A stretch of 64,000 nt of DNA from Euborellia annulipes (taxonomy: Eukaryota; Arthropoda; Insecta; Dermaptera; Anisolabididae), in assembly GCA_023213315.1 (NCBI GenBank), contig JAKCPI010016844.1, forward strand, positions 1-64,000. Reading direction: 5' to 3'. Under the pieces are notes generated by a model. It saw only the letters and a program-made list of their open reading frames with translations, was not told the origin of the DNA and did not search any database. Shown here one piece after another: positions 6,191-60,550 of this stretch (position 1 is the first letter of the stretch; each line of letters begins with the position of its first letter). The translations under genes and the position numbers were made by a program.

Positions 6191-6241
6191 AGAAAATGCA
6201 GCTATATATATATATATATATATATATTTAATTATACAGCT

Positions 6242-6276
6242 GATGTTTCGATTCTGTATTGAAACCATCTTCAGAG
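6242..6276 (-). ncRNA. Hammerhead ribozyme-like motif
   Basis: On the minus strand, CTGAAGA is followed by an imperfect stem II and by CGAAACATC. Position 7 of the CTGANGA box is variable in known hammerheads, so CTGAAGA is acceptable. Stem III would have a C-A mismatch. Confidence 0.45.
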
Positions 6277-6450
6277 CTAACAAAAAGTCTTTTATAAAAG
6301 TGTCAAGTGGATTTTGTACATTTTTAGAATATGTATAATAAAAATATGATGATCATGTATACAAACGATATTGTTACAAACATATTATACAATATCAAGT
6401 GTAGTGAGTAGGTTCTAAAAATGTAGAAAAATCTACAATGGCATTTTGTC

Positions 6451-6487
6451 AGCTCTGAAGATGGTTCCAACATAGAACCGGAACAAA
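6451..6487 (+). ncRNA. Hammerhead ribozyme-like motif, core-mutated
   Basis: CTGAAGA (6455-6461) precedes stem II arms GGTTC and GAACC. The second conserved box reads GGAAC instead of GAAAC, which should abolish catalysis. Confidence 0.4.
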
Positions 6488-6964
6488 ATAAATAAAGAAA
6501 AAAATATAGCTGCATTTTCTTCGGTACTACCATTCCCGGTTGAAATGAAATTTCGCCAAACTTATAGAGGGCTTTATGAAGTCAGGAATAAAAGACCAAT
6601 AATCCCCAAATGGGGAGTATCAAAAGAATTCTTGAAAATCCTGAAAAAATCATTTAAAATTTTATCTCTCCTTATCAAAAATACAAAAAATTAAATTTCT
6701 CAAATGAAAAATAATAAAAATTGTAATATATAGGTAATTTTCTTTTTTTTTTTGTCCTTTGATTCTCATAAGAACATATACAGGTCTATTTTCTAAAAAC
6801 AGACGTTAAAATTTAAAATAAACAAGTGGGTGTTAAAAGTAATGTAAAAACAAAATTCAAAATCACTTCCTTGTCTCAAATAGCATTCTTTTAAAGCCAA
6901 AGCGTTAACATTTATTAAATAGTGTTAAAAATTAATGCCATGTCTAGGGTCTAGGTGCCTTTAA

Positions 6965-9557: not shown

Positions 9558-9710
9558 AAGAAAACAGACCCAAAATTATTTTATTCATACCATGCCGACG
9601 TTTCGTGGACGTCAGCTATCTTCAAGGCCTCGTTGGTTGAGTAATTGTAAATCCTCAAGAATCTACTTGAAAATGCATGAATAACAGGTAAAAAAAAGTC
9701 TGTTTTCATT
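9558..9710. mobile_element. Eroded hammerhead-ribozyme fold-back, copy 3
   Basis: Short inverted arms GAAAACAGAC (9560-9569) and its complement (9698-9707) enclose one ribozyme-like motif on the minus strand (9594-9628) reading TTGAAGA...CACGAAACGTC. GCC before the core pairs with GGC after it (stem I). The right half has lost its ribozyme. The CTGANGA box is mutated at its first base. Confidence 0.45.
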
Positions 9711-11884: not shown

Positions 11885-11996
11885 TATGTATCAGGGGGGA
11901 TGTGAGGCTGTAGAGTAGATGTTGAAAGAGATAAAAAAAAAAAAACAAGAGGAAAATACAGCCAATGTAGTTTCTTTAATGATATTCATCCCACGT

Positions 11997-12036
11997 CTAA
12001 CGTTTCGATCCTATGTTTGGATCATCATCAGAGCTG
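11997..12036 (-). ncRNA. Type I hammerhead ribozyme motif
   Basis: Minus strand: CTGATGA (12025-12031), then perfect stem II arms GATCC and GGATC around AAACATA, then GAAACGTTA. Stem III is reduced to AC/GT, so a monomer would be unstable and a dimer is expected. The cleavage triplet would be GTT. Confidence 0.65.
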
Positions 12037-12061
12037 AGGCTATATGCCTTTTTGACACAGC

Positions 12062-12112
12062 CCCAGCTCTGATGATGGTCCAAACCTAGATTCGAAACGT
12101 TGGGCTGAATAT
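12062..12112 (+). ncRNA. Type I hammerhead ribozyme motif
   Basis: CTGATGA at 12069-12075 and GAAACGTT at 12094-12101 are intact. CAGC upstream can pair with GCTG downstream (stem I). Stem II is imperfect compared with the opposite copy. Confidence 0.6.
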
Positions 12113-16749: not shown

Positions 16750-16784
16750 GAAATAAATATTAATAGAATAATAGACAGGAACAA

Positions 16785-16830
16785 GACAGGCGTTTCGGTT
16801 TTAATTAAATAAAGCCATCATCAGTTCTCA
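16785..16830 (-). ncRNA. Hammerhead ribozyme-like motif
   Basis: On the minus strand CTGATGA (16818-16824) and CCGAAACGCC are present. Stem II arms GG...CC extend through an A/T-rich hairpin. The base expected to be U before the cleavage site is C in the adjacent triplet, so activity is doubtful. Confidence 0.5.
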
Positions 16831-16929
16831 AGAGATTATTGGCTCAAGGTTGGGATGCAGAGAGTGTTGTTTTATATAAACATATACAAAATTATATAAA
16901 AATATAACATTTGCACAGACAATAATCTC

Positions 16930-16975
16930 TTGAGAACTGATGATGGCTTTATTTAATTAAAACCGAAACGCCTTC
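16930..16975 (+). ncRNA. Hammerhead ribozyme-like motif
   Basis: CTGATGA at 16937-16943 and GAAACGCC at 16965-16972. AGAA before the core pairs with TTCT after it (stem I). As in its inverted partner, the GTC cleavage triplet appears as GCC. Confidence 0.5.
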
Positions 16976-17139
16976 TGGATTGAGATTTTTATTCGATAGG
17001 GGCTGTCCTGTTGGGCTGACATCCTCTCTTCCTGTCTATTATTCTATTAATATTTATTTCTTATGAAGTAGTTTTGGTAGAGAGGTCATACCATCCTTGT
17101 TAAGGTTTTTGGCCAGGTTTTCCTTAACAACTTAAGGCG

Positions 17140-31440: not shown

Positions 31441-31955
31441 CAACTCGTGTTAAGCATTCAAAAGAGAGGTTATATATATAAAATGGACCAAGAAGAAAAG
31501 AATATCTCTCTGCTAATAAAATTGGGGACAGACAGACTTTTCTTTCAGATAAGATCATATCTGTAAATCATATTTTTTTTTAATTCAATATAAAATTTCT
31601 TTAGAAATCTCAAGTGAATAAAAAAGGAATTATACAATATAATATAAATATCTATTTATTTATTTTATTTCTTTTTATTTATCATCATCAAAATGAACAA
31701 AGGAGCGAATGTTATTGTAGAAACGAAAAATGTATCTATTGCTATAGATTGTTGTAATTATTGTTTGTACATATTGCTATGAATTGTTTTAATTTTTCAA
31801 ATCAAAAAGATTTTTTTTTTTTTTGATTGAGTATAATGAAAAGATTTACACATCTGAATTTTAACAAAAATTTGAACCAAAATTTAAATGTATACAATTT
31901 GTCTTAAGGAAGTGGATTAGCAGCCAGGAGAATAAAAAACTATTTTTAATTTCTT

Positions 31956-32000
31956 TTGATCGACATTTCGGACGCCAATCACGTCCTTCTTCTGGACCAA
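31956..32000 (-). ncRNA. Hammerhead ribozyme motif, core change
   Basis: On minus, stem I TTGGTC pairs with GATCAA. The core reads CAGAAGA instead of CTGANGA, stem II arms GGACGT and GCGTCC pair fully around GATTG, and the 3' box is GAAATGTC. One core base (U4) is wrong, so it is probably inactive. Confidence 0.55.
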
Positions 32001-32100
32001 GATTGTTAAAAAGCACACGTGGATTTTGTTGTGGCATGTATAAAATATTTGAACAATATTGACAAAGGCATCCTTTTGTGTAAAAGAAGAGCTCTCTGTG

Positions 32101-32354: not shown

Positions 32355-32398
32355 TCTCTGTGCGTTATTTTCTCCAATACGTGTGCTTTTTTACAAAC

Positions 32399-32446
32399 TT
32401 TGATCCCGAAGAAGGACGCGATTGGCTTTCGAAACGTCGACCAAAA
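32399..32446 (+). ncRNA. Hammerhead ribozyme motif, core change
   Basis: The core reads CCGAAGA and is followed by a weakened stem II and an intact GAAACGTCGACC. Stem I TTTGATC pairs with GACCAAA with one mismatch. It is the inverted partner of 31956-32000. Confidence 0.5.
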
Positions 32447-32546: not shown

Positions 32547-33519
32547 ATGATAAAGATAATTTTATGATAGTTTAGGAGTTATTTGTGAAATGGTAAAATA
32601 AACTTTTTTTTTTTTAAATGGTAGCAGGAATTTACTTAGAGGAATGGAGGGGGGGATTTAAATTAGTTCTGATAGAAATTCAAGAATTTAAAACAATTTT
32701 TCAAATTAGTGCTGTTGTTTCAAAATTCCTATTTGAACGAAACTTAAGTTTTATTGTTAATTTAAAGTTCATAATAATCTAGAAAACGGTAAACTTCTAG
32801 GATAACAATACTTGTTAGTAGTTTGTAGAATAATTTTTTGGAATTCTACAAAATTAAAGAGATTGAAATTTGAAACTTACAAAATGTGAAAAATAAAAGT
32901 AAAATAAAATAATTTTTTTTTTCAATTCAATTAATTGTAATAGGTGACATCTGTCGTTTGGAATCCAGCAGCGGTTAATAAACACATCAGTTTTATTTTT
33001 TTTTATTTTTTGTTTATTATCCACAAAAGGAGCAAGTTTTTATTTTCTTTGAACAACTAAAAGGCCATTCCCCTTTAAGGTGGGGGAGTCCACGAAAATA
33101 AATTTCATTTGTTTATAATAAAAAATACGAATTTATTTTATAATTAAATTTAAATTTTTTGAAATCAAATGTATAATAAAATGGTAATAAAAAAAAAATC
33201 TTTAAATATTTTAAATATAAATCGGAACATTTATTTTATAATTATTGTTTATTAGATCGTATTTAAATCATCAGCGTGCAATTGATACAATAAATATTTA
33301 TTTATATTACCTTGATCAATATTCGTTTAAATAAATTATTAATTTAAAATTGAATTGAATCTATGGGGAAAATAAAATTTAATATATGACTAATTATAGA
33401 ATAATAATTGTGAGATTTAATTTTAACTTTTTCTTTATAAAGCATTTATTCTGAAACTATTTAACGAATTTTCAAAAGGTTTTTATCAAAGTATAGTTAA
33501 TTTAAAATTTATTTTTAGA
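32547..33519. other. AT-rich interval, no gene
   Basis: Low-complexity A/T sequence. Only short, chance-like repeats such as TAAAATAAAATAATTTT were seen. Confidence 0.5.
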
Positions 33520-33562
33520 GAGGCCTGATGATGGTTCAGTATGTAACCGAAACTGTCAAATA
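33520..33562 (+). ncRNA. Solo hammerhead ribozyme motif
   Basis: CTGATGA (33525-33531), stem II arms GGTT and AACC (33533-33536 and 33545-33548), and GAAACTGTC (33549-33557). ACTGT gives a 2-bp stem III with a one-base loop and GTC as cleavage triplet. Stem I is weak and there is no inverted partner. Both core boxes are canonical. Confidence 0.55.
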
Positions 33563-36080: not shown

Positions 36081-37996
36081 TCTTTATTAGATATTAAAAA
36101 ACTTATATCTAATGAAAAAAAAGAACTTGAATTTTATATACAAGGTGTCTATAATTGTAAATTTATGAAAATCAAAAAGTTGTTAATATTCAAGTTTTTT
36201 TTTTAAATGGAACATTTCTTTTTAATCAAACTGTTAATTTTGGATATTAAAGGGAAATATTTAATAAACTCCTATTGGATTTTCACGTAGAATTTAAAAA
36301 TAATTTATACAATGTCCAATTAAAAGAAAATTTGATTATTAATTAAATAAACGATTATTATGTACACCCTGTATATAAATTATTAATTCATTTCTAAAAT
36401 GTTATTAGTTGAAGTCAATAAATCACAGTGAGTTATTTTTTTCTATTTTCAAAAAAATTTAAATTTAAATAATGATCTTGTTAGTAAAATTCACTGGTCA
36501 CCGATCCAATTCATGCATTCGCATTCAATTGCTTAAAGCAATTTTCTACACTCACGATTTAAATCTAAGATTAATGACCCTTATTACAATAAGTGTATTA
36601 TTTTATGTGAGTTATACACATATAAATTACATCTACTCTCTCTATATAGCATTCATTCCCTTGAGGCAAACAAACAATATTTGAACTTTTTATTGATTAA
36701 ATTAGCCCCTCATTATTTGCTGATTTTTTATAACGGAACAGTTTAATAAGAAGAAGATATGCAAATATGTCTAAAAAGATAAAACGGTTAAAAAAAAAAT
36801 AATAATAAAAAAAAAATTAAAATTAAAATAATTGAAAAATTTACAAATACAAATTATAACAATATATTATTGTTATTTTTAATTAATTAAAAATAATTTT
36901 TATTATTAAATGAAGTTTAACCAAAATGAATTTGATACATTTTAGTTTTTCTAGTTTCTATCTTACACCATTTCTCTAATTCTTAACAATAAAATTTCTG
37001 TCAACAATAGAACAATGTTAACTTCTCAAGTTAGTTATCCGTATTATTTAAATTAAAAATAAAAATTATTGCTATTTTATAATTTGTATAAATATTGATT
37101 TTATTTTATTTATGTTAATTTTTGACTAAATATTTTAACAATACATTATAAAGTATCAATAGGTAGCACTACAATAAACAATATCATATTCTTCTTTCTT
37201 AACAACTATTTTTTGGCTCCCTTGTGTTCATTTAAAATTTTCTTACCCATTTACTGTAGTAAAATACTACAATACGAGCCCTTATTGTGCCAGACTTCCA
37301 GATCTCCAACTCACTAAGAGCCCTTATCTTATTTTTCTATATGGGCAAATGATTTTTTATAATTATTGTTAATTGAAAGTATTAAGTAATCAAATTTTTA
37401 AGTATTTAAAATCCTTTCCCTTAACTCTGTCAGCAATAATAAGCAACCTCTTCTTTTACATTTTTTTTTAAGAACCGACTTTTTTCTTTTAAAAATACAA
37501 ACACTGATAATCCCTATTTACTTCCTCCCACCCCCTTATCTTCCTTGTGAGTAAAATAAGCAAAATGTTAACTCTCCAAGCTAGTTATCCATAATACTTG
37601 AATTAAAAATAAAAATTATTGCTATGTTATAATTTGTAGAGCTATAAATTTTTATTTTATTTTATTTGTCAATTTTAGAGTAAATAATTTAACAATACTG
37701 TTTATTATAAAGTATGTAAAATATTAATTCCATGAAGACTTGACGAAGACGAGCCGAAACGAAATGTCCCTAATCTAAATAAATGAGATGAAAGAAAGTC
37801 CCTAAATTAATCCAACAGATTTCGGACCACTATGTAAAATATTAGGTTTCAATATATTTATTGATAAATTATTTGAAGGTTGATTAATAATACAAATAAT
37901 CAAGAATAATAGTTATATTCATTCTGAAGATGGCTTACTAACAAATGTCAAAATCAAGTAATACTAATTAAAATAGCAATAAGTATAATTGAATTG
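36081..37996. other. AT-rich interval with one repeat pair
   Basis: The segment 37045-37140 is repeated with divergence at 37585-37715 (AATTAAAAATAAAAATTATT, GCTAT..TATAATTTGTA), so this is a local direct duplication about 540 bp apart. CGAAGACGAGCCGAAACG near 37743-37760 recalls a ribozyme-element end but lacks the full core. No gene. Confidence 0.4.
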
Positions 37997-38165: not shown

Positions 38166-38220
38166 TATTCATTCTGAAGATGGCTTACTAACAAATGTCA
38201 AAATCAAGTAATACTAATAG

Positions 38221-41939: not shown

Positions 41940-41942
41940 GAT

Positions 41943-42470
41943 TTTTGTTTAGACGGTCTAAAAACAATTACAATTCTTTAAACAAATATTGTTATATTAA
42001 CAATAATTGTTTTAAAAATTAGAATATTGTACTGTAAATTAACATAAATATTTGAAGTAGTATTGTAGTTCTTCTGTTATTATAACAATACTTTGTAGAA
42101 ATTTGTTTTAGAATCTTTTTTTTTTTTAAGTTTATAATTCTCCAAGTGGCTTTAAATTTTTCTTCAAAATTCGAGTCTTATTAAAGCCTCTAACAATGTA
42201 AATTTACACTTACGTTGTTTTTTATGTAAAGTTGGGTTACAGGATCATTTTTTTTTTACAATAGCTTCCATCAAGTAAATACAAACATAAAAAGACATAT
42301 AAAAATACAAATTACAAGTAATACTGGTGTATAAGTAAAACAAAATTATAAAAGTAGGTAAATCACTCCTTTTAGATTCATTTAATCTGGAAAATAAATA
42401 ATATTGAACTATATGACTAATTCATAAAATCAATGGAATTTATAATTCAACAATTGAAAGACAGAAAGCG
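41943..42470 (+). repeat. Dispersed ~530-bp repeat, copy A (joined to ribozyme fold-back)
   Basis: It is closely similar to 53072-53745: both contain AGACGGTCTAA/AAACGGTCTAA, AATATTGTACTGTAAATTAA, TCTCCAAGTGGCTTTAAATT and ATTCAACAATTGAAAGACA. The end of this copy forms the left arm of the ribozyme fold-back at 42417-42663. In the 53-kb copy the same sequence continues without any ribozyme. Class unknown; no ORF. Confidence 0.7.
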
Positions 42471-42480
42471 AAAAAAAAAG

Positions 42481-42523
42481 TTGTCGACGTTTCGAATACT
42501 GATCGCACTCTTCTTCAGGGCAA
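42481..42523 (-). ncRNA. Type I hammerhead ribozyme motif
   Basis: On minus: TTGCC (stem I side), CTGAAGA, stem II arms GAGTGC and GTATTC (pairing with G-T wobbles) around GATCA, then GAAACGTC and GACAA. The core boxes are intact; stem I has one mismatch. Confidence 0.7.
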
Positions 42524-42560
42524 AATTGCTGTCCAATTTTCAGGTTAGTTGACATCATTT

Positions 42561-42603
42561 TTGTCCTGATGAAGAGTGCGATCGGCGCTCGAAACGTCGA
42601 CAA
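42561..42603 (+). ncRNA. Canonical type I hammerhead ribozyme motif (best copy)
   Basis: Stem I TTGTC (42561-42565) pairs perfectly with GACAA (42599-42603). The core CTGATGA is at 42566-42572. Stem II GAGTGC (42574-42579) pairs with GCGCTC (42585-42590, one G-T wobble) around loop GATCG. GAAAC GTC lies at 42591-42598. Stem III is only A-T and C-G with no loop; since ACGT is self-complementary, two molecules can share a 4-bp stem III as in dimeric hammerheads. The predicted cut is after C42598. All invariant core bases are present. Known relatives sit in Penelope-like elements and retrozymes. Confidence 0.8.
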
Positions 42604-42666
42604 CTTTTTTGCCTTCTGTCTTTCAATTGTTTAATTATAAATTCCATTGAATTTATGAATTAGTTA

Positions 42667-42830
42667 AAATAAAATAAGTCTATTTTTTGTTGACTTTTAA
42701 AGCGCCGATCGCACTCTTCATCAGGACAAAATTGATGTCCAATTTTCAGGTTAGTTGACATCATTTTTGTCCTGAAGAAGCGTGCGATCGGCGCTCGAAA
42801 AGTCAACAAAAAATAGACTTATTTTATTTT
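42667..42830. mobile_element. Hammerhead-ribozyme fold-back element, copy 8b
   Basis: Arms 42667-42690 and 42808-42830 (AAAATAAAATAAGTCTATTT and complement) flank ribozymes at 42688-42729 (minus, second box mutated to TAAAAGTC) and 42767-42808 (plus, GAAAAGTC). The same 37-bp centre as copy 8a is present. Beyond the right arm, CAGCCAT (42849-42855) occupies the position it has in copies 7 and 9. AATTAGTTAAAA (42658) and AATTTAGTTTTA (42864) may be a decayed target duplication. Confidence 0.75.
42767..42808 (+). ncRNA. Hammerhead ribozyme motif, mutated 3' box
   Basis: TTGTC, CTGAAGA (42772-42778), stem II GCGTGC and GCGCTC around GATCG, then GAAAAGTC (42797-42804). Stem III and stem I are disturbed by the A for C change and by AACAA in place of GACAA. 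Confidence 0.6.
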
Positions 42831-43798
42831 TCGCCTTGGCATAATATCCAGCCATCAAGAAACAATTTAGTTTTATTGTTTATTCTAAGTTCAAGGAAAT
42901 GAACTTCTAGAGTATAATGTAACAATACTTGATTGTAGATTGTAAATTAATTGTTTCAGATTCTACAATTGAACAAAATTGAAGTAATTGAAATTTGAAA
43001 CTTAAAAATTACAAAATATGAAAGTAAAATAAAATAAAAATATTTATTTATATTTAAATATCAATATTATATGGTGTGATGAAATTTACAAATTGTCTTC
43101 TCTTAGAGCACAAACACACATTTTAAATTTTATCTCTTCACAAGACATGTTGCATCTTATTTTTAATTTATTTTAAAATCTATAAACAGAGAGAGAGAGT
43201 GAGTGAGTTAATTAAAACGCTGTTAAGTTGTATTTCATCTTTAATTATATATTTTGTGGCGGCGTCACGAGCATGAATTAAACATATATCATTAGTTTGC
43301 TCTCATAAAGACTTAAATGGTTCTCTAATATTAAATTTGCATATTCCCTCCCCCCTCCTCTCAAAAAGGTTTTCAATTTATTATATTTCCAATTGAGACT
43401 AAAAAAAAAAAAAATATTAATAGAGTTGTTATATTGATAGAATACATCAGAGCGATTTTTTTTTTTTAAATTGAATTGAAAGACAAATTTATGTTGTGTC
43501 CTTATTTAGTAAAAAAGAGTAATAATGCTCCATCAAAATCTCTTAAAAAAAAATTTCAGATTAGATGTAATAAATTTTATAAAAAAAAGAGAGAGAGAGA
43601 AAAGAATTAGTAGATTATTATAGATAATAATTTTATTCATAGGTGTGAATTTTGAATTTTGAAAATTACATATTTTAAAACATCTGAATTGGTAATTAAA
43701 AAAAAAAAGTGTAATTTAAATTTAAAATACGGAGACAACATAACTTTTCTATAATACAATATTTTATAACTATAAAATTTATATTTTGAATAATAGAA
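42831..43798. other. AT-rich interval, no gene
   Basis: It contains (GA)n tracts near 43190 and 43590 and low-complexity A/T. The segment 42900-43030 resembles 32770-32920 (TTGTAGATTGTAAATTAATT, GAAATTTGAAACTTA-type strings), so another diverged repeat is present. Confidence 0.45.
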
Positions 43799-51738: not shown

Positions 51739-53071
51739 ATACTAATTAAACATTCGGTAATCTGTCATTTGAAAATATTTAATGATAATATTAAAAAGAA
51801 AAAAATGAAAATACAATAGTTCTTGAATAAAAAAATATTTTTGATGAAATCTGGTTAGTTAAAAAATATAGTCGATCAAAAAAAAAAAAAAACGAAATTT
51901 TGAAGCTTATATGAAATAAGTTACCTCTAATAGAAAAGTATTTCACTTATTATGGTTTATTTGAAAAAAAAAAATAAATAAAAATAATAATATTGTAATC
52001 AATTTGTAGAAGCGTGCCTTTTTAAGAAATAGTTAAATTATTTTGTTGAAAATTTATTGTTTTAAGGTCTAAATAAGCAAAAGCACAAAACTACAAAAAA
52101 TATTGTAATTATAATAAATTTATTGTTTTAAGGTCTAAATAAATTCAAGTACAAAACTACAAAATTGTTATAAAAACAATTATTTAACGGTGGAATTATG
52201 TATATATTGTTTTACCTTGCACCATAAATGCGTATTATTTTTTATCTATTTATTATTATTTTTTAAGCTTCGTTTAATCAAAAAAAAAAAAAAAAAAATT
52301 AAAGGAATGTTAGTATATAAACTGAATACGAATTGCCTAAAATTATGAATAGAATATTAATCATAAAAGCTCTCATTTAGGAATCTTGATCAAGTGCTTT
52401 TTTTTTTCTATATTAAAAAGCAATCTGGAAAAACATGTCAAAAGAAAATTCATTTATTGTTATTCAATCGATTAACGTTTTTTGTTTTTGTTTTTGTTTT
52501 ACTTGATTTCTGTTCAAGAACTACTGTATTTCCATCTTTTTTTTTAATATCATCATTAAATATTTTTTTTTATCACCAATTTAGAACAAGATTAGTGAAA
52601 TTTATAAATATTACTTAAAAAAAAAAAAAAATGATTAAAATCCTCCTCTTAAGTTTAAAAAAAAAAAAATGATAATAACAAAACTTGATTTTTAAATGAG
52701 TTTAAAGCCTTTTTTTTATCTCTTCTAATCTGAATTAATTGATTTTTCTCTTTCACAGGAAATTCCCTCTATATTTAAAAACTTCTTTTAAGATTTCAAC
52801 AGAGCGTCATCAAGTTTACGTTAATTAATTACTCTACTTATTATTAATTATTATTACGTAGGCTTTATTAATTTCTGATTTAATAAAAAAAAAAAAAAAA
52901 TAGCTTAATCACTTTTCAATATCTTGTTGTTTTTTAATTTATTTCACAAAAAAAAAAAAAAAAATGAATTCCAGTTCTTTTTTTGTTCTTGTGTCGTTCT
53001 GAAAAGAATTTTGATGATATAAATATTATATTAAAAATACGGGCATCGGCCCCTGCGGGATGGGGATTTTT
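51739..53071. other. AT-rich interval with duplicated AAGGTC segment
   Basis: The segment 52050-52230 (TTGTTTTAAGGTCTAAATAA, AAAACTACAAAA, CACCATAAAT) repeats 50848-50965 and is itself internally duplicated. The rest is low complexity with several A or T runs above 12 bases. No gene. Confidence 0.45.
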
Positions 53072-53745
53072 GTTTAAACGGTCTAAGAACAATTACAATT
53101 CTTTAAACAAATATTGTTATAATAACAATAATTGTTTTATAAATTGGAATATTGTACTGTAAATTAACATAAATATTTGAGGTAATATTGTAGTTCTTCT
53201 TTGTTATTATAACAATACTTTGTAGAAATTTGTTTTAGAATCTATTTTTTTTTTTTTTTTTTTTTAAGATTATAATTCTCCAAGTGGCTTTAAATTTTTC
53301 TCAAAAATTCGAGTCTTATTCAAGTCTCTAACAATGTAAATTTACACTTACGTTGTTTTTTATATGAAGTTGGGTTAAAAGATCATTTTTCTTATAATAG
53401 CTTCCATCAAGTAAATACAAGGTGGTCCGATTGTCTGTAGGGATATATAACACGATACTTGGAAGTGAAAACCGTTTATCGCCTAAGTAAATATGGTATA
53501 ATACGATGACATGGAGTATCATGCTCTGTTTAAGCAAAACACAAGTAAATACAAACATAAATTAACTGACATATAAAAATACAAATTACAAATAATTCTG
53601 GTGTACATGTAAAACAAAATTATAAAAGTAGGTAATTCACTCCTTTTAGATTCATTTAATCTGGAAAATAAATAATATTAAACGATATGACTATTTCATA
53701 AAATCAATGCAATTTCTAATTCAACAATTGAAAGACAAAATCAAC
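53072..53745 (+). repeat. Dispersed ~530-bp repeat, copy B (no ribozyme insertion)
   Basis: Paralogue of 41943-42470 with a 130-bp extra piece (about 53420-53548) flanked by the direct repeat CAAGTAAATACAA/ACAAGTAAATACAAAC. After ATTGAAAGACAAAATCAAC it continues into unrelated AT-rich DNA, whereas copy A enters the ribozyme fold-back. Confidence 0.65.
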
Positions 53746-55884: not shown

Positions 55885-56906
55885 GGGGGGGGGCGGAAAG
55901 TAATGTCGTTTTTTTACATTGAATTCAAACAAATAAATGTTTAACAAGTTTTTATTTTCAATAAATGATATAATCACTCTCGTTATCAACAACCTTTTGC
56001 CATCTAGTATCCAAAATTTCAATGCCAAAATCAATTGGTTTTTGAGCTAAATATCTGGAGATGGCATTTTGGACATCATCCAAATTTTCAAATTTTTTGC
56101 CACTTAAAGTTGGGAATAAATGGAAATCCGATGGCGCGATATCGGGAGAGTATGGTGGGTGAGGCGATACCTCCCATCCCAATTCGTTAATTTTTCCCAA
56201 GGTTCGTCTTGAACAGTGCAGTCTTGCATTATCATGTTGCAGAATAACGCCTTTTCTGTTGACAATCGCTGGGCACTTTTCAATTTTCACTCGATCCAGT
56301 TGTTCACAATAAAGGTCTGCATTCCATGTTTCAGCACTTTAAAATGAATGACCCCGCGAATACTTCACCAAACACACAAAAACGCCTTTTTGGGGTGTAA
56401 ACCTGGCTTAGCTGTACTTAGCCATTGCCTTTTGCGTTTTGGATTATCACACAGGATCCACTTTTCATCTCCAGTGTTCAAGCGATCAAAAAACGCTTCT
56501 GTATTTGTGCCGCTGAAACAATAACTGGTGGATCGGTTAGCTTCGGACAGATTATGCGGGACCCAAACACCTGCTCTGCTTACTTTACCAATCTGCTGCA
56601 AATGTTCTTGGATGGTCGACCAAGAGTGTTTGACAGTTTCTCGATTGTTTGACACGGATTTGCTTCCATTTCCGCCCTTAACATGTCATTGTCTAAAGTT
56701 ATTGGTCTTCCTGATCGATACGAGTTGGAAAGATCAAAATTACCGGATTTGAACTTAGAAAACCACCTTTGGCATTTAGGAACGTCTAATGCACTTGGAT
56801 AAACATCGCAAATGTTTTTGGTAGCAACTGTTGGGTTACCACCCTTGAGAAACTCAAAAAGCATACAATGCCGGATATGTACTTGTTCTGGTATTTGGCT
56901 GGCCAT
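55885..56906 (-). pseudogene. mariner transposon with frameshifted D,D34D transposase
   Basis: The transposase runs from ATG 56906 (MASQIPEQVHIRHCMLFEFL, N-terminal helix-turn-helix region) to about 55955. Three frames must be combined: 56906 to about 56610, then to about 56365, then 56300-55958. At least two frameshifts and a stop make it inactive. Signature motifs are all visible: WVPHNLSEAN, TGDEKW (first catalytic Asp), LQHDNARLH (second) and YSPDIAPSDFHLFP (third), with 34 residues between the second and third Asp (mariner D,D34D). The family length of about 345 residues fits. A TIR-like end with AAAGTAATGTCGTTTTTTT lies at 55895-55915; the opposite TIR beyond 56906 is not recognisable. 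It acts by cut-and-paste into TA sites. Confidence 0.9.
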
Positions 56907-60034: not shown

Positions 60035-60244
60035 ACAATCGTTTATCAGGTATCGTTTATAATGTTATTGTGTATTATTTTATTTTTCATCAGTTTTTGT
60101 TCCGTTTTTTTTTTTGTTAAATTTTTTCTTTGTTTTATTTGTATTACGTAATTTCTATTATATGATTTTTTCCCGTTTATATTTTATATTATTATTCAAG
60201 GGATGATGAATAGGCAGCCAACAAAAAACAAAATTTTTAATTTT

Positions 60245-60291
60245 CTCTGTCGACGTTTCGAACGCTCATCGCGCTCATCATCAGGACAGAG
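60245..60291 (-). ncRNA. Canonical type I hammerhead ribozyme motif
   Basis: On minus: CTCTGTC pairs with GACAGAG (7-bp stem I). The core is CTGATGA, stem II GAGCGC pairs with GCGTTC (one wobble) around GATGA, and GAAACGTC follows. Stem III is again the self-complementary ACGT. All core positions are intact. This and 42561-42603 are the two best candidates for activity. Confidence 0.8.
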
Positions 60292-60413
60292 AATATTAAA
60301 ATTTTTTTTTGTTGGCTGATCATCAGGCGCTCATCATCAGGTCAGAGAATATTAAAAATTTTGTTTTTTGTTGGCTGCCAACAAAAACGAACAAAAAACA
60401 AAATTTTTCATTT

Positions 60414-60458
60414 CTCTGTCCTGATGATGAGCGATGAGCGTTCTAAACGTCGACAGAG
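60414..60458 (+). ncRNA. Hammerhead ribozyme motif, damaged
   Basis: CTCTGTC and CTGATGA (60421-60427) are intact and GACAGAG closes stem I. Stem II has lost two bases and the second box reads TAAACGTC instead of GAAACGTC. It should be inactive, unlike its inverted partner. Confidence 0.6.
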
Positions 60459-60550
60459 AAAATTAAAAATTTTGTTTTTTGTTGGCTGCCTATTCATCAT
60501 CCCTTGAATACATACACATCAGCCATATCCAGTTATAATTTTATATTATT

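Follow-up and report, generated by a model that had tools for sequence, protein, structure and literature searches.

Two abutting fold-backs, E1 at 42416-42664 and E2 at 42666-42830, lie in the 64,000-nt stretch of the Euborellia annulipes assembly that we analysed (contig JAKCPI010016844.1, hereafter the window), and both are very probably worn inverted pairs of solo pLTRs from a Penelope-like retrotransposon (PLE) whose pLTRs carry hammerhead motifs. By comparing their arms, we recovered the two fold-backs reported in a preliminary description: the outer arms of E1 (42416-42475 and 42605-42664) are 93% complementary, its inner arms (42474-42533 and 42551-42610) 87%, and the arms of E2 (42666-42739 and 42757-42830) 93%. 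The centre is identical in both, as had been reported, but it measures about 40 bp by eye rather than 37 bp. The 123-nt units 42481-42603 (E1) and 42687-42809 (E2) are 88% identical. Since the arms have diverged by 7-13%, the pairs are old. Neither has clean edges, with shortened tails in E1 and a truncated left arm in E2, and no target-site duplication was seen by eye at E1 or E2, the ends of which were not callable by script. The two may have arisen in one compound event or as two insertions. Just outside E2, positions 42859-43018 are about 69.5% similar to 32739-32895 in the 32-kb region, perhaps as an older repeat. The features are listed below, with scores from the covariance model R1 described thereafter.

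42416-42466, + strand: host target DNA left of the E1 insertion, collinear with the paralogue at 53065-53740
42467-42485, - strand: E1 left arm, shortened pLTR tail (alignments to the family tail and the paralogue)
42486-42518, - strand: E1 left-arm minimal hammerhead, well preserved (pattern match; 31.5 bits, E 4.9e-6)
42519-42565, no strand: E1 inverted junction of 47 bp, where the pLTR has its inverted repeat ATGTCAA...TTGACAT, both sides in spliced form; the gap in locus L067 is also 47 bp
42566-42598, + strand: E1 right-arm minimal hammerhead, exact match to the genome family (31.0 bits, E 6.8e-6); predicted cleavage after C42598
42599-42613, + strand: E1 right arm, shortened pLTR tail (alignments to the family tail and the paralogue)
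42614-42664, - strand: repeats target DNA 42416-42466 in inverse orientation (both arms, the right one inverted, aligned with the paralogue)
42666-42724, - strand: E2 left arm, truncated tail plus decayed hammerhead at 42692-42724 with a broken core (10.9 bits, E 1.7)
42725-42771, no strand: E2 inverted junction of 47 bp, nearly identical to that of E1 (sequence reading)
42772-42804, + strand: E2 right-arm hammerhead, weakened, CGAAAAGTC (pattern match; 19.7 bits, E 0.0071)
42805-42839, + strand: E2 right-arm pLTR tail, 25 nt short at the end when aligned to the family tail
42840-42865, + strand: optional PLE 3' extension, on the E2 right arm only (26/26 identical to the extension of other copies)
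53065-53740, + strand: paralogue of the target without insertion (alignment)

The preliminary description was right that 42561-42603 holds the core letters together with stem I (5 bp), stem II (6 bp, one of them G-U) and ACGT as stem III, with the qualifier that one A (42573) is unpaired between A9 and stem II. By searching for a hammerhead-like pattern, we found four matches in the window, two in E1, one in E2 and one at 60 kb, against 0.01 expected from shuffles. The preliminary description had made the identification depend on a hit to the Rfam hammerhead covariance model; none was obtained in the window, either at the gathering score or at E up to 10, as would be expected for variants without a closed stem III. 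Across all Rfam families, 34 sub-threshold matches appeared at E up to 10, many of them to microRNA-hairpin families, as would be expected of a palindrome.

The hammerhead identity was borne out instead by covariation of the stems. A core-pattern scan of the collected loci plus the window (676,342 bases, both strands counted) gave 124 hits in 20 clusters and 2 in letter-reversed sequence, a count that is not an unbiased density, as 86 of the 124 come from the window's own family, which brought the loci in. Across the 20 clusters, stem II paired in 60/80 cells compared to 42.4 (sd 3.2) with the 3' strands swapped, and stem I in 44/80 compared to 29.0 (sd 4.1), neither observed value being reached in 5000 swaps. 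In this test, one base after A9 was left unpaired for stem II, a few clusters that look spurious were retained, and stem I of L061, which stood for the largest cluster, scored as poorly paired owing to an altered junction. Covariation was also found in the alignment of 14 motifs behind R1, none of which comes from the window or from its subfamily: the score was 0.52 compared to 0.14 when shuffled, with none of 500 shuffles as high, and the signal was best at zero slide and gone once the partner was slid by 1-3 columns. Two coarser measures were equalled by 100/500 and 30/500 shuffles; several of the 14 motifs are mutually related, gaps in the alignment break stem II beyond two pairs, and the model uses only 6 base pairs.

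Scored with R1, the two motifs of E1 are well preserved, the right motif of E2 is weakened, and the left motif of E2 has lost its core, with CGAAA replaced by TTTAAAA. The earlier claim that each fold-back carries two ribozymes was thus not confirmed. The minimal type I features are present, namely a conserved core and covarying stems I and II. Judged by sequence, the outward-facing motifs are minimal type I hammerheads for which self-cleavage is predicted, and the proposed dimer-type stem III found support as well.

The motif is widely dispersed. With up to 3 mismatches allowed, it occurs at 1,784 places (893+891) in the 903-Mb assembly, against 0 for a reversed-pattern control. At the 66 sites that we read, the ribozyme is followed by a common 3' sequence with the end CATCCTCAT, after which some copies continue for ~32 nt more. 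Among the 18 inverted pairs read, E1 and E2 included, both ends were callable in 13. The 3' extension was present on exactly one arm in 12 of these; the thirteenth (L016) was called without extension on both sides, yet a divergent form is visible in it. Direct repeats of at least 10 bp were found at the ends of 8 of the 13 called pairs, compared to 0/156 swapped flanks, and were absent from the other 5.

The orientation of neighbouring motifs was counted in the first 100 listed of 804 places with the spliced form and in the full set of 95 with the unspliced form (see below for these two forms). Neighbours within 10 kb comprised 29 in (-,+), none in (+,-), two in (+,+) and one in (-,-) orientation among these listed places. 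Of the 29 head-to-head neighbours listed, 23 are less than 600 bp apart, which leaves no room for an ORF between them, and all listed neighbours at that distance are inverted. Gaps between paired motifs range from 23 to 446 nt. Direct neighbours within 10 kb were found only in C210 and C25340 among the 195 listed places, at 1.2 and 1.9 kb with the same flank repeated in the former, and 3.0 kb apart in the latter, where they delimit a full element. The 47-bp inter-motif gap is common to E1, E2 and L067, which all fold back at ATGTCAA...TTGACAT, and this inverted repeat of the pLTR can account for the shared centre even if the pair had no common ancestor. Within the window, R1 detected five more head-to-head pairs of PLE-type motifs (18.4-35.1 bits) with inverted-repeat surroundings, so this layout is common here:

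6234-6282 (-) and 6447-6495 (+): head-to-head pair
11991-12039 (-) and 12061-12109 (+): head-to-head pair
16781-16832 (-) and 16929-16980 (+): head-to-head pair
31954-32002 (-) and 32398-32446 (+): head-to-head pair
60244-60292 (-) and 60413-60459 (+): head-to-head pair

Single R1 matches were also seen at 33517-33562 (24.4 bits), 9589-9633 (16.8 bits), 37916-37957 (16.3 bits) and 38166-38207 (16.3 bits). An open frame at 55958-56338 on the minus strand looks by eye like a mariner-type transposase fragment.

The sole listed (-,-) pair led to L084, a full copy with two direct hammerhead pLTRs whose ribozymes lie at sense positions 292 and 3425, that is 3,133 nt apart; one such copy was read. 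Between its direct pLTRs is an 826-aa open frame (stop to stop). Pfam found no domain in this frame, even at E 10, so the family assignment rests on pairwise homology: over 555 aa, the L084 frame shares 34% identity (E 3e-99) with that of L038, in which GIY-YIG was found above the cut-off (8.5e-07) and RVT_1 below it (1.1e-06; 29.0 bits for a cut-off of 29.6). Through this homology, an RT/GIY-YIG ORF is linked to the pLTR of the window's family. Among 14 database homologues, PF00078, PF26215 and PF28514 are variously present and PF01541 occurs in 2, and a search of solved structures returned one match only, to a nanobody at E 0.82.

A second PLE family emerged independently when GIY-YIG was searched for (710 candidates, of which 150 were scored and 118 matched); it has a different hammerhead about 415 nt past the stop codon in the six loci L038, L040, L042 and L045-L047. 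In this second family, the stop codon is followed by an intron-like GTATGT...CAG stretch and then by the hammerhead CTGAGGAAGGAGTGCC...TCTCCGAAATATA, and 3' ends occur with and without a short extension. L046 and L047 were rejected as autonomous partner, as their own pLTR hammerhead differs and the family motif there belongs to an adjacent inverted pair. Open frames in L031 and L037 resemble bacterial UvrC by eye and come perhaps from a symbiont or contaminant.

Upstream of the ribozyme, the sites are mainly of two types, with some of the 66 fitting neither. In the spliced type, CATTTTT is directly followed by GTCCTGATGAAG; in the unspliced type, a 70-97-nt GTATGT...TAG stretch lies between the two. 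Exact matches numbered 804 for the spliced form (399+405) and 95 for the unspliced form (47+48), with controls at 0 and with a pattern for the latter that takes introns of about 69-99 nt only. Such exact GT-AG removal in the genomic sequence indicates that spliced sense RNA was the template for those copies. Intron state could be called for both arms in 15 pairs, with one arm uncalled in 3 more; in all 15 the arms agree, being spliced in 13 and unspliced in 2. As about 2.8 mixed pairs in 15 would be expected for independent arms (95/899 unspliced), finding none is weak evidence that the two arms are not independent. Each of the four arms of E1 and E2 is spliced, and a stricter typing rule left the E1 left arm unassigned owing to substitutions.

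The intron ends three bases before the hammerhead core, inside stem I, and splicing lengthens this stem from 3 to 8 bp, with computed duplex energies of -6.5 kcal/mol when spliced and -1.9 kcal/mol when unspliced. Over 12 loci, R1 gave 27.5-32.4 bits for spliced family arms, and 27.2 and 24.2 bits for the unspliced L084 and L003, respectively. Gap lengths differ between spliced and unspliced pairs (Mann-Whitney p 0.016, 15 vs 14 pairs among the listed places), which may only reflect 5' truncation. L084 keeps both introns. Tentatively, splicing might complete and arm the ribozyme via stem I, with unspliced RNA carrying full-length elements and spliced, self-cleaving RNA feeding the abundant short pLTR-only pairs, a scenario to which we give rather low odds. 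Introns in Penelope-like elements were reportedly the subject of Arkhipova et al. 2003, to go by its title. An intron is known in at least one PLE copy from the excerpts of PMC3846280, and no report of an intron splitting a hammerhead stem I was found in the available portions of the open-access literature searched.

The outer arms had been described as unrelated between the two elements, and this is explained by their origins: element tail in E2, and inverted target DNA in E1. Both E2 arms match the family tail, and the right one ends in the 3' extension. With the E1 right arm (42599-42666) as query, a genome search that skips very common words, and hence is no proof of rarity, gave 3 places, all in this contig, namely the two arms of E1 and 53690-53740. 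These 3 places do not support another repeat family as the source of the E1 outer arm, and the alignment with the paralogue ruled out a second type of PLE tail. This paralogue, 53065-53740, is a local duplicate of 41940-42466 with about 120 extra nt and without the insertion (91% match between 41940-42284 and 53065-53420, and 92% between 42272-42466 and 53542-53740). Further left, 42201-42416 matched at 9 places, of which 3 are in this contig and the other 6, which are weaker, lie elsewhere in the genome. The paralogue can be aligned with the E1 left arm and the inverted right arm up to ~42466, the start of the pLTR, and diverges from there. Therefore, 42416-42466 is target DNA and 42614-42664 is its inverted copy of 51 bp. 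In sequence terms, this copy points to fold-back synthesis on cDNA joined to the target; it could also stem from a later DNA-level inverted duplication.

We propose that a short sense RNA would start in the pLTR and be spliced. The RT of the element would prime on cut target DNA and start inside the RNA, at the tail. The cDNA would then end near its own ATGTCAA...TTGACAT repeat, fold back and self-prime a second strand, which would yield two head-to-head pLTRs. For E1, the fold-back synthesis would have continued beyond the element, so that 51 bp of the attached target were copied in inverse. As for the hammerheads, they would serve the RNA cycle of the element, through dimer-type cleavage of tandem transcripts, and be passengers in the inverted pair.

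Other origins of the palindromes have to be weighed. They might have formed at the DNA level, when one pLTR and its flank were duplicated by folding back, without retrotransposition, and the 51 bp of target DNA taken in by the E1 palindrome would fit. This is unlikely in general, since the target-site duplications outside both arms of 8 of the 13 called pairs imply that both arms were present at insertion there, but E1 alone could be an exception of this kind. We consider it very unlikely that the inverted unit is itself a mobile DNA transposon, non-autonomous and of fold-back or MITE-like type, with the hammerheads as cargo. Inverted repeats throughout, and the 47-bp gap with the same junction in E1, E2 and L067, would agree with such a transposon, but the pair ends are unequal (extension on one arm only in 12/13 called), the gaps between motifs are variable, pairs with independent junctions are seen, and the existence of spliced and unspliced versions means that the family is copied via RNA. 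The inverted repeat of the pLTR explains why the junction is shared.

Animal retrozymes, that is non-autonomous elements spread via small circular RNAs cut by tandem hammerheads, would likewise place type I hammerheads at many sites. However, the motif studied here belongs to the pLTRs of a PLE that has an ORF, and tandem direct hammerheads at short unit spacing were absent from the 195 listed places; metazoan retrozymes are bounded at about 150-300 bp in the excerpts of PMC7761336, whereas neighbours listed here below 600 bp are all inverted. We regard a retrozyme origin as most improbable. The preliminary description saw in the inverted pair one sense ribozyme on each strand's transcript, and both cores are indeed kept in E1. 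Selection of the pair as such a regulatory device is nevertheless scarcely credible, because E2 has decayed, the motif is a dispersed repeat, and the read-through transcript of E1 is predicted to form a hairpin of -149.3 kcal/mol (-145.5 for the minus strand) in which the inverted copy pairs with 29 of the right-arm motif's 33 bases. With its motif buried in this hairpin, the pair is not expected to act as a two-strand ribozyme device, and a working sense ribozyme on each strand's transcript is doubtful. Altogether, the earlier observation is confirmed in part and its interpretation supported in part: the link to Penelope-like elements proved right, as E1 and E2 are best read as inverted pLTR pairs of a PLE, and the head-to-head layout, which was not recognised at the time, has already been described in PMC3846280.

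The feature is thus real and known in kind, as decayed solo inverted pLTR pairs of a PLE with minimal hammerheads. Such a pair is ordinary for PLEs, and its value is that of a fossil of their poorly known replication. Precise intron loss puts spliced sense RNA behind many copies, which bears on the choice between sense and antisense RNA template that the excerpts of PMC3846280 leave open while proposing self-priming. Also, the inverted target stretch suggests that the cDNA was already attached to the target when fold-back priming took place, and the split stem I makes the role of PLE hammerheads more accessible to experiment. As far as the portions of the literature searched reach, three details are new: target DNA copied in inverse, the predominance of spliced over unspliced copies, and an intron located within stem I.

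Taking the excerpts of the cited papers as a basis, the closest likeness is to the PLE families of Adineta vaga (PMC3846280), which share direct and inverted head-to-head pLTRs, palindromic junctions, an intron, an optional tail of ~31 bp on one inverted pLTR, and short target-site duplications (8-10 bp in several copies and none in others); inverted pLTRs are reported there with head-to-head as the most frequently observed order. Penelope of Drosophila virilis (PMC3136932) has long inverted repeats as here, and its repeats were suggested to form dsRNA as a source of siRNA. In comparison with both, 23 of the 29 head-to-head neighbours among our listed places lie less than 600 bp apart, exact-match copies are mostly spliced, and one palindrome reaches into target DNA. 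Minimal type I hammerheads occur in PLE pseudo-LTRs across animals (PMC7761336), also without a proper helix III and with proposed dimer cleavage, whereas in the family studied here stem I is interrupted by an intron, three bases ahead of the core. In PAc, the Poseidon element of Anolis carolinensis (PMC11167929), a hammerhead likewise lies at the pLTR-ORF junction and RT starts inside the RNA at a site matching the genomic tail; its ORF begins at stem II, whereas the open frame here begins after the tail, and its ribozyme cut only with the element protein, mutation being without effect on insertion in vitro. Finally, metazoan retrozymes (PMC7229834, PMC7761336) also carry type I hammerheads in dispersed repeats, but they are circular-RNA elements, whereas the family described here has no close direct motif repeats among the listed places.
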